Position numbers and translations under genes: made by a program. The notes beneath the pieces were generated by a model that was not told the origin of the DNA, did not search any database, and saw only the letters and a list, made by a program, of their open reading frames with translations. Of a stretch of 8,897 nucleotides of DNA, positions 5,791 through 8,219 are shown piece after piece (positions within the stretch are counted from its first letter, which is position 1; each line of letters starts with the position of its first letter). Source of the stretch: Rickettsiales bacterium. Lineage in GTDB: Bacteria; Pseudomonadota; Alphaproteobacteria; Rs-D84. The stretch lies in assembly GCA_031259745.1 (NCBI GenBank), contig JAIRLB010000041.1:1-8897 (forward strand), given 5' to 3'.

Positions 5791-6432
5791 CTATGCGCCG
5801 CATGTGTTCGCTTCAAGCATAAATGTTCCGCTGATGTCGTAATAAATTCCGGCAGGCAGTTTGCAAGTATCGACGGTTGCATTTTCGCCGGCAACATTCG
5901 TCCCGCGTGCTTTCAAGGTAAGATTGCTATTCGTGTATATATTATCTGCCTCTGGGCATTGTGTGCAGATTGGGGCTGATGATGCGTCTACAGTTCCGTA
6001 ATATCCGCTTTTGCAGCGATATCTGGTGCTGCGGCCAGAGCAGGTTCCATTGCTGTTGCAATTCTGGCCTGTGCAAGTTCCGCCATATTGTTCTGATTGA
6101 TAATTTTGATTCGCCACGTCGGAATAACCGCTGGGGCTATTGCACGCCGTGCAGAATAATCGAGTAGGATATATTATTTGTTGGCAACACCAATAAACAT
6201 TGTTATTACAAGTAAAGTTGGTGTTGAGGCTAATGACATTAAATGCTTTATCAGAGCAAAAAGCATAAAATGCTTCTCTTCCATTATTATGATTAGTAGC
6301 GTGTTCGCAAGTATAACAAGAAACATTTTCTTCTATTACATACGGTCCAGTTAGACTGCATTCTGCCGCGATGAGATTTCCAGTTGTAAAAGCAATAGAA
6401 GTAATAAGAAAAATAAAATGAATGATTTTCAT
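5791..6432 (-). CDS. Cysteine-rich exported protein of unknown function
   Basis: I do not recognise a named family. The 213-residue product starts with a clear Sec signal peptide (MKIIHFIFLITSIAFTTG, then NLIAA, cleavage probably before ECS). The mature part has 17 cysteines in about 190 residues (roughly 9%), including CYTC, WCC, CTAC and CTQC spacings. A central stretch, YRCKSGYYG...CTQCP, recalls EGF/furin-like disulfide repeats. The C-terminus reads TCKLPAGIYYDISGTF followed by a final NTCGA. There is no membrane anchor or lipobox, so it is probably a secreted or periplasmic disulfide-bonded protein. The start at 6432 is preferred over the in-frame TTG at 6450 because AAGGGGG lies at 6443-6437 and the signal peptide then begins properly. 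Its first half is markedly AT-richer than the neighbouring housekeeping genes, compatible with transfer or fast evolution. It is preceded by a long structured leader with a terminator and followed by the shared terminator at 5729-5749. Confidence 0.75.
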   Translation of the reverse strand: MKIIHFIFLITSIAFTTGNLIAAECSLTGPYVIEENVSCYTCEHATNHNNGREAFYAFCSDKAFNVISLNTNFTCNNNVYWCCQQIIYPTRLFCTACNSPSGYSDVANQNYQSEQYGGTCTGQNCNSNGTCSGRSTRYRCKSGYYGTVDASSAPICTQCPEADNIYTNSNLTLKARGTNVAGENATVDTCKLPAGIYYDISGTFMLEANTCGA

Positions 6433-6448
6433 AACGCCCCCTTGTAGC

Positions 6449-6473
6449 AAAAAACCGCCAGGAATATGGCGGT
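6449..6473 (-). terminator. Intrinsic terminator in the leader of the Cys-rich gene
   Basis: On the minus strand, ACCGCCA (6473-6467), loop TATTCC, TGGCGGT (6460-6454), continuing in a run of six T (6454-6449): a textbook 7-bp GC-rich stem plus U-tract. It ends only 5 nt before the AAGGGGG ribosome binding site of the gene it precedes. It therefore either terminates a small RNA or works as an attenuator of the Cys-rich gene. Confidence 0.85.
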
Positions 6474-6583
6474 CGGGGAGTTGAAATAATCATGTTAAAG
6501 AATGACCCCGTCGGTCTTCGCCTGTCGCTTGCGCACCCAGACTGTTTTATAACCGACAGCTCCCCGGCCTTGTGCGGGGACAT

Positions 6584-6614
6584 ACAATAAATGGCGCAAA
6601 AGCGCCGCTATTGT
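6584..6614. repeat. Imperfect inverted repeat (31 nt)
   Basis: On the plus strand: ACAATA (6584-6589), AAT, GGCGC, AAAA loop, GCGCC, GC, TATTGT (6609-6614). This gives 6 outer and 5 inner base pairs separated by a small internal loop. There is no T-run on either side, so it is not a classical terminator, but it could cap the 3' end of bamB mRNA or form the first large domain of the leader RNA. Confidence 0.55.
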
Positions 6615-6620
6615 GCGGAT

Positions 6621-6806
6621 TCAGCACGCTTTTTCGCGTGTTGCTTTAACATGGGCTATTTCACGGCCCCGAAACCAAATCCCTTTGGATTCAATTGAAT
6701 TATACTTTGTATTGATATTAAATGCAAATGTTTTATAATGCGTGCCATACAGGTCTTGGCTTTTTATGATTTTCATTTGCCAACTGTTAATTGTTGATTT
6801 TTCCCC
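6621..6806 (-). other. Out-of-frame extension of bamB beyond a G6A5 run (possible frameshift remnant)
   Basis: bamB stops at 6787 shortly after a GGGGGGAAAAA run (minus strand, 6808-6798). If one base of that run is removed, the reading continues for about 60 codons to a TGA at 6621-6623. The junction then reads FDAATGEK, closer to the PQQ-repeat consensus (DaxTGexxW) than the actual FDAATGGK. However, the rest (e.g. QDLYGTHYKTFAFN, IESKGIWFRGREIAHVK) does not look like propeller blades and is AT-rich. I cannot tell whether this is decayed bamB, a separate small gene (an ATG with MKIIKSQDLYG occurs in this frame), or non-coding. Confidence 0.25.
6699..6727 (-). promoter_or_regulatory. Possible promoter of the leader RNA / Cys-rich gene
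   Basis: On the minus strand, TTGCAT (6727-6722), a 17-nt spacer, and a perfect TATAAT (6704-6699). The predicted start is near 6692. It lies downstream of the bamB stop, so it would make the Cys-rich gene a separate transcription unit with a leader of about 260 nt. The -35 box is weak (3/6). Confidence 0.5.
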
Positions 6807-7554
6807 CCGTCGCCGCGTCGAATTTTTCTTTGCCAACGATTATGGCCTTATCCGCATAAGCCGGGGCAGTCGGATATTTAATCTCAGCCCCCCAATAAAT
6901 ATCGCCATTATCGGTATTAATCGCATACAATGTATTGTTTGTGCCAACCAAAAAAGCAACACGGTCGATAACCAAGAAAGGCGTAGCTACGCCGATATCC
7001 AGGCACCAGATTTTTTTGCCATCCTTGGCGCGCAGTTTGCAAAATGCATCGCCGATACCGCCCGCATACAAATGATTGCCATCCATGATGATTGGGGCGA
7101 CGATATCCAGTACGGTTGCGCCGCCTATAAGATTATTCTGTCGATAAATATCCGCAATCCATTCGATATTTCGCGTCTTGAAGTTGATTTTGACCAGTTC
7201 GCCCGTCGTTAAGCCCGCGTAAACATAATTTCCGCCGCAAACAGGTTTTTGATTGCTTTTGACAGAATTGTTGGTCGGATATCCGCTGAATATTTTTTTA
7301 TCCCCCAACCGGACTGTGTTTGAAGAATCCTGAGTATAAGGACAGTCGGAGATTTCTCGTTCCGGGGCGGCATCCGGCAGATTTGGAACAGGTTTGCCCA
7401 TAATCGTCGGGGCAGAATTTGGAAAAACAGATTCGCGCGCACCTGGTAAAACAGGATCGTGATTGCTGCATGCCGTAACAAAGACCAAAGACCAAAGACC
7501 AAAGATCAAATAGCGTACGAAACGAATCTTTGTAAATAAACTTTTATGTTTCAT
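6787..7554 (-). CDS. bamB: BamB-like outer-membrane assembly lipoprotein, short (PQQ-type beta-propeller)
   Basis: BamB is a periplasmic beta-propeller lipoprotein of the BAM complex, which folds beta-barrel proteins into the outer membrane. The 255-residue product starts with a lipoprotein signal (basic MKHKSLFTKIRF, hydrophobic LIFGLWSLVF, lipobox VTAC with Cys29). After a linker (about 30-95) come propeller blades of PQQ type, seen as repeated GxxYAG, xLRAKDGKKIW, YAINTDNGDIYW and FDAATG. Only about four blades are present; family members usually have eight and about 380-450 residues, so the C-terminal half is missing. The start at 7554 is chosen because the signal peptide begins there; the longer in-frame reading overlaps yfgM. 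The RBS is weak (GAAGAG, 10 nt away). yfgM lies 17 nt upstream, the usual alphaproteobacterial pairing, but der (engA), which normally follows, is absent. The hydrophobic core of the signal is encoded by a 7-nt tandem repeat. Confidence 0.72.
   Translation of the reverse strand: MKHKSLFTKIRFVRYLIFGLWSLVFVTACSNHDPVLPGARESVFPNSAPTIMGKPVPNLPDAAPEREISDCPYTQDSSNTVRLGDKKIFSGYPTNNSVKSNQKPVCGGNYVYAGLTTGELVKINFKTRNIEWIADIYRQNNLIGGATVLDIVAPIIMDGNHLYAGGIGDAFCKLRAKDGKKIWCLDIGVATPFLVIDRVAFLVGTNNTLYAINTDNGDIYWGAEIKYPTAPAYADKAIIVGKEKFDAATGGKINN
7478..7510. repeat. 7-nt tandem repeat inside the bamB signal peptide
   Basis: Plus strand: three perfect CCAAAGA units (7485-7505), flanked by ACAAAGA (7478-7484, one mismatch) and the partial TCAAA (7506-7510). 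On the coding strand it encodes residues 16-25 of the lipoprotein signal (LIFGLWSLVF). Because 7 is not a multiple of 3, gain or loss of one unit would shift the bamB frame upstream of the lipobox. Confidence 0.9.
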
Positions 7555-7571
7555 TTGCTGTTTGCTCTTCG

Positions 7572-8219
7572 TTATCTCAAACTTTCGGCATTTGCGGCAA
7601 TAATCGATGGGGCGGTCTTGTCGTTGATAATCTTGTCCAGCCATATATTTGCCGCCGCACGATCACCGGCCGCCAAGTATTTTTGCGCGATCAGCAGCAT
7701 GGCACTGTAATGATAAGGGGAACTTTTCGTATTTAAATCCGACAGGTATTTTTCAAACGCCTGCGCATCCATAGCGTCGCCCTTAATCGCAGCCAAATGC
7801 AATTTTGCCAGATCGCGGAAGTCGCGCGTGCTGCCGTCCGTGGCCAGCTTTTCCAGTTTTGTTGTATCATGGTCCAGCATCCATGACCGGAACAAGGCCA
7901 AATCCGCCATTGCTCCGCCGGCATTCTGGCCCAGTGCCGCCAGCGCCTGGGCGTCAAAATTCTGAACGGCCGTTTCATAGGCGGCCGCGGTGGCAGCCCG
8001 AGATGCGTGGTTATTGTGCCGAATCGTCTGAAAAGCGGTCGCGGCAATTAAAATGACCAGAGCGCCCGCAATCAGATGGCGCGAATACCGTTGCAGAAAT
8101 CGTTGGGTCTTTTCATTGTTCACGTCTTCCCATACCTCGCGGTACAGGGCGTCTTCCGCGTATTCTTCCAGGGTTTTGCGTGGTTTTAAGTTTTTGTTTC
8201 TTTCAAGAATTGTCGCCAT
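7572..8219 (-). CDS. YfgM-like membrane-anchored tetratricopeptide protein
   Basis: Proteins of this group (TPR_21, YfgM type) are anchored in the inner membrane, face the periplasm, and in E. coli associate with the SecYEG translocon as part of the periplasmic chaperone network. The 215-residue product has a cytoplasmic N-terminus (1-46), a single transmembrane helix (about 48-66, LIAGALVILIAATAF) and an Ala-rich helical periplasmic domain. That domain has TPR-like pairs (e.g. MADLALFRSWML, LLIAQKYLAAGDRAAANIWLDKI). The start is supported by AGGAG at 8232-8228, 8 nt from the ATG. It forms an operon with bamB, 17 nt downstream, matching the usual order. The N-terminus is about 20 residues longer than I expect for alphaproteobacterial homologues, so the exact family name is less certain than the topology. 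Confidence 0.75.
   Translation of the reverse strand: MATILERNKNLKPRKTLEEYAEDALYREVWEDVNNEKTQRFLQRYSRHLIAGALVILIAATAFQTIRHNNHASRAATAAAYETAVQNFDAQALAALGQNAGGAMADLALFRSWMLDHDTTKLEKLATDGSTRDFRDLAKLHLAAIKGDAMDAQAFEKYLSDLNTKSSPYHYSAMLLIAQKYLAAGDRAAANIWLDKIINDKTAPSIIAANAESLR

Follow-up and report, generated by a model that had tools for sequence, protein, structure and literature searches.

In antisense-controlled plasmid attenuators of the pT181 type, alternative pairing within a leader decides on an intrinsic terminator. The C4 antisense RNA (RF01695) binds its target mRNA through the loops a′ and b′, of which b′ partly covers the ribosome binding site (RBS), and is cut by RNase P from a larger transcript at a GG, as described in the available passages of PMC5320573, and the motifs c4 and c4-a1b1 stand side by side in a list in the available part of PMC2864571. 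Another small RNA, sRNA-Xcc1 (RF02221), was detected as an RNA of about 88–100 nt in Xanthomonas according to the available text of PMC2996969. Passages from two further papers place it upstream of symE in Xanthomonas integron cassettes (PMC12444791) and put five of seven Xylella homologues in one genomic island, with C4 RNAs listed near a genomic island in another Xylella genome (PMC12189769). In the open-licence literature no paper was found that pairs sRNA-Xcc1 with an antirepressor, and in that literature it appears together with RNase P only in PMC12189769. The leader described here is a likely descendant of such a phage control RNA.

The leader and its gene in the window

The window is the whole stretch of 8,897 nucleotides that was analysed, from a contig of a Rickettsiales bacterium. 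The whole leader occupies positions 6450–6692 of its minus strand, about 240 letters, and the features predicted in and around it are given below in the order of transcription.

6699–6727, minus strand: promoter, TTGCAT (6727–6722), a 17-nt spacer and TATAAT (6704–6699), read directly in the sequence and located by script
6671–6692, minus strand: P0, 5′ hairpin of the RNA, with 95% of cells paired and 6 of 9 pairs changed on both sides
6667–6670, minus strand: strand a (GGGG), 5′ side of P1, pairing with 6478–6475 of strand d
6644–6663, minus strand: upstream antisense target a1/b1, 5′ sides of P2 (6663–6656) and P3 (6653–6644), from covariation and cognate pairing
6622–6643, minus strand: P4 hairpin, with two-sided changes in 7 of 7 pairs
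6581–6617, minus strand: P5 hairpin
6574–6580, minus strand: strand b (TCCCCGC), 5′ side of P6 and rival of d for c
6560–6569, minus strand: strand c (GGCCGGGGAG), partner of b (P6) or of d (outer stem of sRNA-Xcc1)
6463–6569, minus strand: half resembling sRNA-Xcc1 (RF02221), 33.9 bits and so below the Rfam cut-off of 53
6508–6559, minus strand: P7, with the conserved internal loop UUAUAMAACAG / CGAAGACC
6482–6500, minus strand: antisense strand a′/b′, 3′ sides of P3 (6500–6491) and P2 (6489–6482)
6471–6480, minus strand: strand d (CTCCCCGACC), partner of a (P1) or c, its ACC being also the base of the terminator stem
6449–6473, minus strand: intrinsic terminator, from the sequence, ACCGCCA (6473–6467) / TGGCGGT (6460–6454), loop TATTCC, T-run to 6449
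6437–6443, minus strand: Shine-Dalgarno-like AAGGGGG, from the sequence
5791–6432, minus strand: gene after the leader, ATG at 6432–6430, for a cysteine-rich protein of 213 aa with a signal-peptide-like N-terminus

The landmarks named in the original prediction are all present on the minus strand: the promoter at 17-nt spacing, dense inverted repeats, the terminator at 6473–6449 and AAGGGGG at 6443–6437. Transcription is predicted from the sequence to start at 6692, the first base of P0, and the terminator-like hairpin ends about 17 nt ahead of the gene. None of 200 dinucleotide shuffles folds as well as the RNA 6433–6692 does (z = −4.29). CGGGGAG (6566–6560) can pair either locally with 6580–6574 or with CTCCCCG (6480–6474), and both pairings recur in relatives, the second with changes on both sides in 4 of its 10 pairs. 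The competition proposed for 6559–6552 does exist in the window, and its partner 6515–6510 belongs to the conserved helix P7, but the other partner, 6527–6522, lies in an insert that is absent from many copies. The two helices richest in covariation, 6663–6656 with 6489–6482 and 6653–6644 with 6500–6491, were not named in the original prediction. A Pfam search gave no match for the 213-aa protein. Elsewhere in the window a short tandem repeat of GACCAAA, possibly slippage-prone, was seen at 7480–7515, near the start of a BamB-like ORF (6787–7644, minus strand).

Copies and distribution

The leader is a real element, conserved and present in many copies. A DNA search of the partial genome from which it comes (676 kb in size, with a completeness of about 69%) returned nine matches with E no higher than 1. 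The window's leader is one of them, and eight have an E of at most 0.0011; the three best long paralogues were 79, 77 and 71% identical to the window leader. A covariance model, R1, built from 33 copies over 231 positions (alignment A2), gave 13 matches in the same genome (one at a contig end; weakest E 8e-5). At a limit of E 1e-4, with at most ten candidates scored per genome, R1 matched 178 of 201 genomes from the order; at a limit of E 1e-3, with five candidates scored, it matched 27 of the 385 genomes searched in the class. Twelve genomes picked among those with matches, in which up to 150 candidates were scored, held 5–61 R1 matches each and 262 in all. One exact 20-mer was found in 15 stretches of named genomes, which are MAGs of a Rickettsiales, Alphaproteobacteria or Proteobacteria bacterium; two of the titles name roe deer gut sites, and several of the other MAGs are presumably from termite guts.

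Among 16 loci with RF02221 hits that R1 had left unlisted, 13 do give an R1 match when examined, and the remaining L109, L115 and L117 give none, though they are alike by eye. Resemblance of these unlisted hits to tRNA was discarded as an explanation, ARAGORN having found no tRNA at them in the 16 loci (a single tRNA lies elsewhere, in L106). Two leaders stand head to head at G187:C4:79621–80749, and likewise in G197 (L093) and in G128. The idea of an invertible segment between these leaders was dropped on the evidence of L093, the one inspected, in which the 644 nt between them contain an ordinary lipoprotein-like gene.

Boundaries of the leader and the genes behind it

In 61 of 97 copies a box that agrees with TATAAT in 5 or 6 of its 6 letters ends 6–7 nt ahead of P0, which makes P0 the probable start of the RNA. 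At the 3′ end TTTT is present in 95 of the 97 R1-defined copies, and also in 36 of the 38 R1-defined copies that are without the exact hairpin letters of the finder pattern. The genes behind the leader were counted on 105 distinct copies, that is, 106 matches minus six reverse-strand echoes, one truncated copy and three duplicates, plus nine divergent copies; one of these had too little downstream sequence, leaving 104 testable. A same-strand ORF stands behind 102 of the 104 (all except L020 and L161), at a median of 26 nt after the terminator and in 93 cases with an RBS-like motif; the starts lie 5–110 nt past the terminator, and RBS-bearing starts were favoured when they were picked.

The original prediction called for a check whether copies of the leader precede other cysteine-rich exported genes. 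By a simple heuristic 76 of the 102 ORFs behind leaders are predicted to be exported, compared with 17 of 57 control ORFs, and at least 4% cysteine is found in 51 of the 102 proteins versus 9 of the 57 controls. Pfam was run on 92 of these proteins, after ten that were very short or nearly duplicated others had been set aside, and most of the 92 match no Pfam family; the families found, with one to three members each, are glycosyltransferases, Chlamydia PMP repeats, Stealth, DNA methylase, OMP, YadA anchor, LicD and others.

Genes for C-5 cytosine DNA methyltransferases lie behind the leader in two distant members (L030:1571–2557 and L288:460–1482). A family of long proteins lies behind nine leaders (L017, L024, L029, L032, L081, L085, L088, L089 and L097) with a longer gap to the start codon, about 100 nt, and most of its members have LKACSVLP or LKICSVLP at the N-terminus.

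Conservation and covariation of the fold

Over P0, P2–P3, P4, P5, P7, c–d and the top of the terminator, 91.2% of 2181 cells are paired, versus 81.9% in shuffled alignments and 40–47% when the structure is slid, a control that is somewhat favourable because the structure was taken from the minimum-energy fold of one member plus the c–d stem named by the analyst, on a sequence-based alignment (MAFFT). Both sides have changed in 40 of 68 pairs, a number reached by 0 of 500 shuffles. These two-sided changes are found in 12 of 18 pairs in P2–P3, in all seven in P4 and in four of ten in c–d, which is paired in 96% across the alignment, and P6 was excluded from the pair counts because it lined up poorly. 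The 33 copies used for pair counts and the 37 used for energies were picked by a terminator-letter pattern that also fixes part of strand d (39 hits, 57 loci), and the letters of the terminator and of that part of d are therefore favoured by selection in alignment A2. Divergent copies keep the same layout with other letters, as in GGTTGGAGG/CCTCCAACC, GGCAGGAGG/CCTCCTGCC and GGACTGGGAG/CTCCCAGTCC. The original prediction was to be given up if there were no homologues with compensatory base changes; since such homologues were found it passed this test, and a real, conserved, terminator-bearing leader is borne out by the copies, the covariation and the exported genes behind.

Relation to sRNA-Xcc1 and to elements of phages

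The original prediction had recognised no known class of RNA, and this point is not supported. The 3′ half scores on RF02221, with 33.9 bits for the window, which lies under the gathering score of 53, 52.3 bits for a paralogue (C78) and 58.0 bits, over the cut-off, for a relative (G007:C57), and in its layout the leader follows the C4-type antisense leaders of phages. No other Rfam model, T-box and other leader classes included, matches the window at E up to 1. With E limited to 1e-3, RF02221 is found in 27 of 40 relatives, in one genome over the cut-off, and many of these hits lie on the 3′ half of leaders. The closed outer stem of sRNA-Xcc1 and its two inner arms are present in the window, where the alignment runs over the full length 1–87. 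Common to both are the outer stem c–d, a P7-like arm with an AUACAA/AUAAAA loop, a third hairpin and a CC-rich stem start after d, and canonical members of sRNA-Xcc1 also have the upstream half of the leader. Whereas sRNA-Xcc1 is annotated as an sRNA of about 87 nt, the sequence here forms the 3′ half of a leader of about 240 nt, stays under the cut-off in the window copy and is followed by an intrinsic terminator.

Among 398 genomes of the phylum, with 10 candidates scored in each, 39 had an RF02221 match over the cut-off, against 0 of 14 controls, and the core letters of RF02221 were found in at least 120 viral-contig stretches. The 17 canonical loci displayed, out of 22, have a similar upstream half and mostly a gene close behind. 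The viral set comprised 82 elements with flanks, 79 of which had the c–d stem located and 50 of which were non-redundant, and 47 of these had an ORF (L164, L187 and L191 had none). Behind 42 of the 47 an antirepressor-type Pfam domain was found at E up to 1e-3, namely AntA (10), ORF6N (9), KilA-N (8), pRha (7), P22_AR_N (4) and Bro-N (4). Thirty-eight of the 42 are over the curated Pfam cut-off and the other four (three pRha, one Bro-N) under it, and the other 5 of the 47 proteins have no Pfam match at E up to 1e-3. In Escherichia phage Rac-SA53 ant starts 37 nt behind the match, in Vibrio phage VPBES an annotated sRNA-Xcc1 lies ahead of two genes, the second of which encodes a DNA-binding protein, and in a Pantoea plasmid a Rha-family gene follows the element.

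Two canonical loci showed further neighbours. At L133:24–1193 about 300 nt separate the end of a CRISPR repeat array (CRISPR-DR4) from a canonical sRNA-Xcc1 element downstream of it. On plasmid NZ_CP126776.1 (L296, about 11937–12156) a canonical-type leader ahead of a KilA-N gene is flanked by a listed OXA-48 gene on one side and an ISL3 transposase on the other, and several related plasmid records have two such places.

Antisense pairing and comparison with C4

In canonical elements a two-block strand before d complements both an upstream copy and a copy at the RBS or start codon. The mean energy of the cognate duplexes was below that of all 500 permuted pairings, upstream as well as downstream, for 50 viral and 30 genomic elements, and the cognate was the single best in its row upstream and downstream, respectively, in 12 and 11 of the 50 viral and in 15 and 3 of the 30 genomic elements. 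In the clade of the window, represented by 37 copies (the terminator-pattern copies less L027 and L045), none of 500 permutations was as low as the pairing of a′/b′ with a1/b1, and the cognate was best in 35 of 37 rows. A copy's own a1/b1 beat all 20 non-cognate partners of its a′/b′ in 36 of 37 cases and every one of 20 shuffles in 30 of 37. When copies of a single genome were compared with each other, the cognate strand was the best partner in 6 of 7 copies of the window's own genome and in 12 of 13 copies of G001, the loci used being 7 of 12 and 13 of 15 as the others failed the strand finder, and one non-cognate pair in G001 reached −23.7 kcal/mol.

Downstream, at the RBS, the pairing in the clade was −15.65 versus −14.87 when permuted, 21 of 500 permutations were as low and the cognate was best in 1 of 37 rows. 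An RBS target is not clearly detectable in the clade, yet the downstream pairing is not wholly at chance. Pairing of a′/b′ with the copy's own RBS or start codon, at which AUGAAAAUCAU in the window hints, was considered for the clade and did not stand clearly above the permutations. In C4 the targets of a′/b′ follow an a1/b1–a2/b2 scheme. Complementarity of a′/b′ to an upstream a1/b1, a trait of C4, is present in the clade. Complementarity to the RBS region of the next gene, also a C4 trait, is not clearly detectable in the clade and is present in the canonical sRNA-Xcc1 elements, for which none of 500 permutations reached as low an energy. The C4 model itself gave no match in the window (E up to 1) or in 17 further loci (E up to 0.5), and none at its cut-off in 20 loci with canonical elements.

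The antisense a′/b′ is shared with the C4 of phages P1 and P7, as are the RBS target and the antirepressor-type genes in the canonical sRNA-Xcc1 elements, but the clade differs from C4 in the absence of an RF01695 match, in an RBS target that is not clearly detectable and in genes that are mostly predicted to be exported. Strand c of the clade mostly starts with GG, and C4 is reportedly processed from its larger leader at such a GG, as far as the available account goes. ACCA or GCCA directly follows d in 25 of 50 viral elements, while in the clade GCCA is also part of the terminator stem; this fits a tRNA-like substrate of RNase P as a hint only, and is no proof. In the clade a hairpin takes the place of the RBS target, and a T-run is present at it in 95 of 97 copies, compared with TTTT within 45 nt after d in 6 of 50 viral elements. 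The C4-like Group 1 sRNAs of Acinetobacter baumannii resemble the leader as phage-type antisense RNAs with many copies per chromosome, but in the available passages of PMC5320573 they match the C4 motif and are not placed each before a gene for an exported protein. Compared by layout alone, pT181-type attenuators share the alternative pairing and the terminator with the leader, which differs in carrying the antisense strand within itself.

Predicted default termination and the proposed switch

In the minimum-energy folds of the free leader d pairs with a in 34 of 37 copies when one base is inspected, and in 37 of 37 when four bases and a wider stretch are used. The default fold is lower in energy than one with c–d forced in all 37, although in 12 of them the forced stem has at most 7 pairs. 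The terminator has a mean of −13.1 kcal/mol, which becomes −6.0 if c takes d up to its GACC. When a1/b1 was blocked in silico d moved to c in only 10 of 37 copies and the terminator stayed at about 6 bp on average, and when strand a was blocked as well d moved in 14 of 37. Antitermination through c–d upon blocking of a1/b1 is for this reason weak in the energy models and not carried by the energies alone. The free d–a fold with its whole terminator supports default termination as a prediction, and the ON switch is what we infer beyond it.

The best reading is that a leader of the C4-like antisense kind has come to end transcription by default ahead of surface-type genes. On balance it is somewhat more likely than not that the leader is a C4-like relative of sRNA-Xcc1 which by default terminates transcription before the gene and allows read-through only once a partner has captured its upstream strand. 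The main product would be the RNA from +1 to the terminator; the default fold of P1–P2–P3 and P6 would leave the terminator whole, and most transcription would stop there. Occupation of a1/b1, for example by a′/b′ of RNA released from the same locus, would free d to move to c, and the d–c pairing would pull apart the base of the terminator and let RNA polymerase pass into the gene. In its tRNA-like form closed by c–d the RNA might also be cut by RNase P, as the available passages report for C4 (PMC5320573).

Alternative explanations

Promoter spacing and terminator delimit a unit of about 240 nt, the terminator remains formed in most simulated states, and sRNA-Xcc1 has been detected as a short RNA in Xanthomonas (in the available text of PMC2996969), all of which would suit a self-contained gene for a trans-acting small RNA, with the downstream gene served by constant leak-through or by another promoter. 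Such a gene is possible but rather unlikely, as a same-strand start codon close behind 102 of 104 copies would be needless for a free small RNA and, among the upstream and RBS-side strands compared in the clade, the only clear complement of a′/b′ is the copy's own a1/b1. Many dispersed copies, again 5–61 matches per genome in the 12 genomes picked among those with matches, could also suggest a MITE-like mobile repeat bearing a promoter, whose closeness to genes would be due to chance or selection. This is highly improbable: leaving aside the window and a few short stretches, the copies listed by the DNA searches have diverged to about 65–90% identity and are not near-identical recent insertions, the changes between them preserve the structure, and their orientation and distance to the start codon are nearly fixed.

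A riboswitch, in which P7 and its conserved internal loop would form a ligand pocket steering the same strands between terminator and read-through, would account for the conserved core in P7, the mutually exclusive helices, the terminator ahead of the start codon and one class of leader over many genes. No common pathway links the Pfam families found behind the leader, however; the letters of P2 and P3 vary between copies in one genome with pairing kept, as antisense specificity predicts, and in canonical relatives the strand recurs at the RBS, which would be superfluous for a ligand switch. This explanation is considered unlikely, and a new kind of riboswitch is not supported because nothing points to a ligand; the leader is instead a variant of the sRNA-Xcc1 or C4-like kind.

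Significance

What appears to be new is the anatomy of the whole leader, the antisense reading of RF02221 and the spread of the element as a terminator-bearing module before surface-type genes. A concrete role is offered for RF02221, whose function is left open in the available literature passages, which would form the 3′ half of antisense leaders that stand ahead of phage antirepressors, and the shift from blocking of the RBS to a terminator can be traced by comparison. The leader has multiplied in an alphaproteobacterial group, in which hundreds of copies can be annotated (262 matches in 12 genomes), and it looks like a control layer of a set of surface genes that includes exported cysteine-rich proteins, autotransporter-type repeats, glycosyltransferases, Stealth proteins and DNA methyltransferases. 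A further reading, speculative and quite improbable, is that a phage RNA for antirepressor control has been domesticated and multiplied, to 5–61 matches in a genome, into self-recognising switches, each with its own a1/b1:a′/b′ code; RNA released by a locus that is active would bind a1/b1 in newly made transcripts from that locus alone and hold its terminator open. If this were true, the cell surface would be diversified, with no DNA rearrangement, by an ON/OFF memory that is heritable and specific to each locus.
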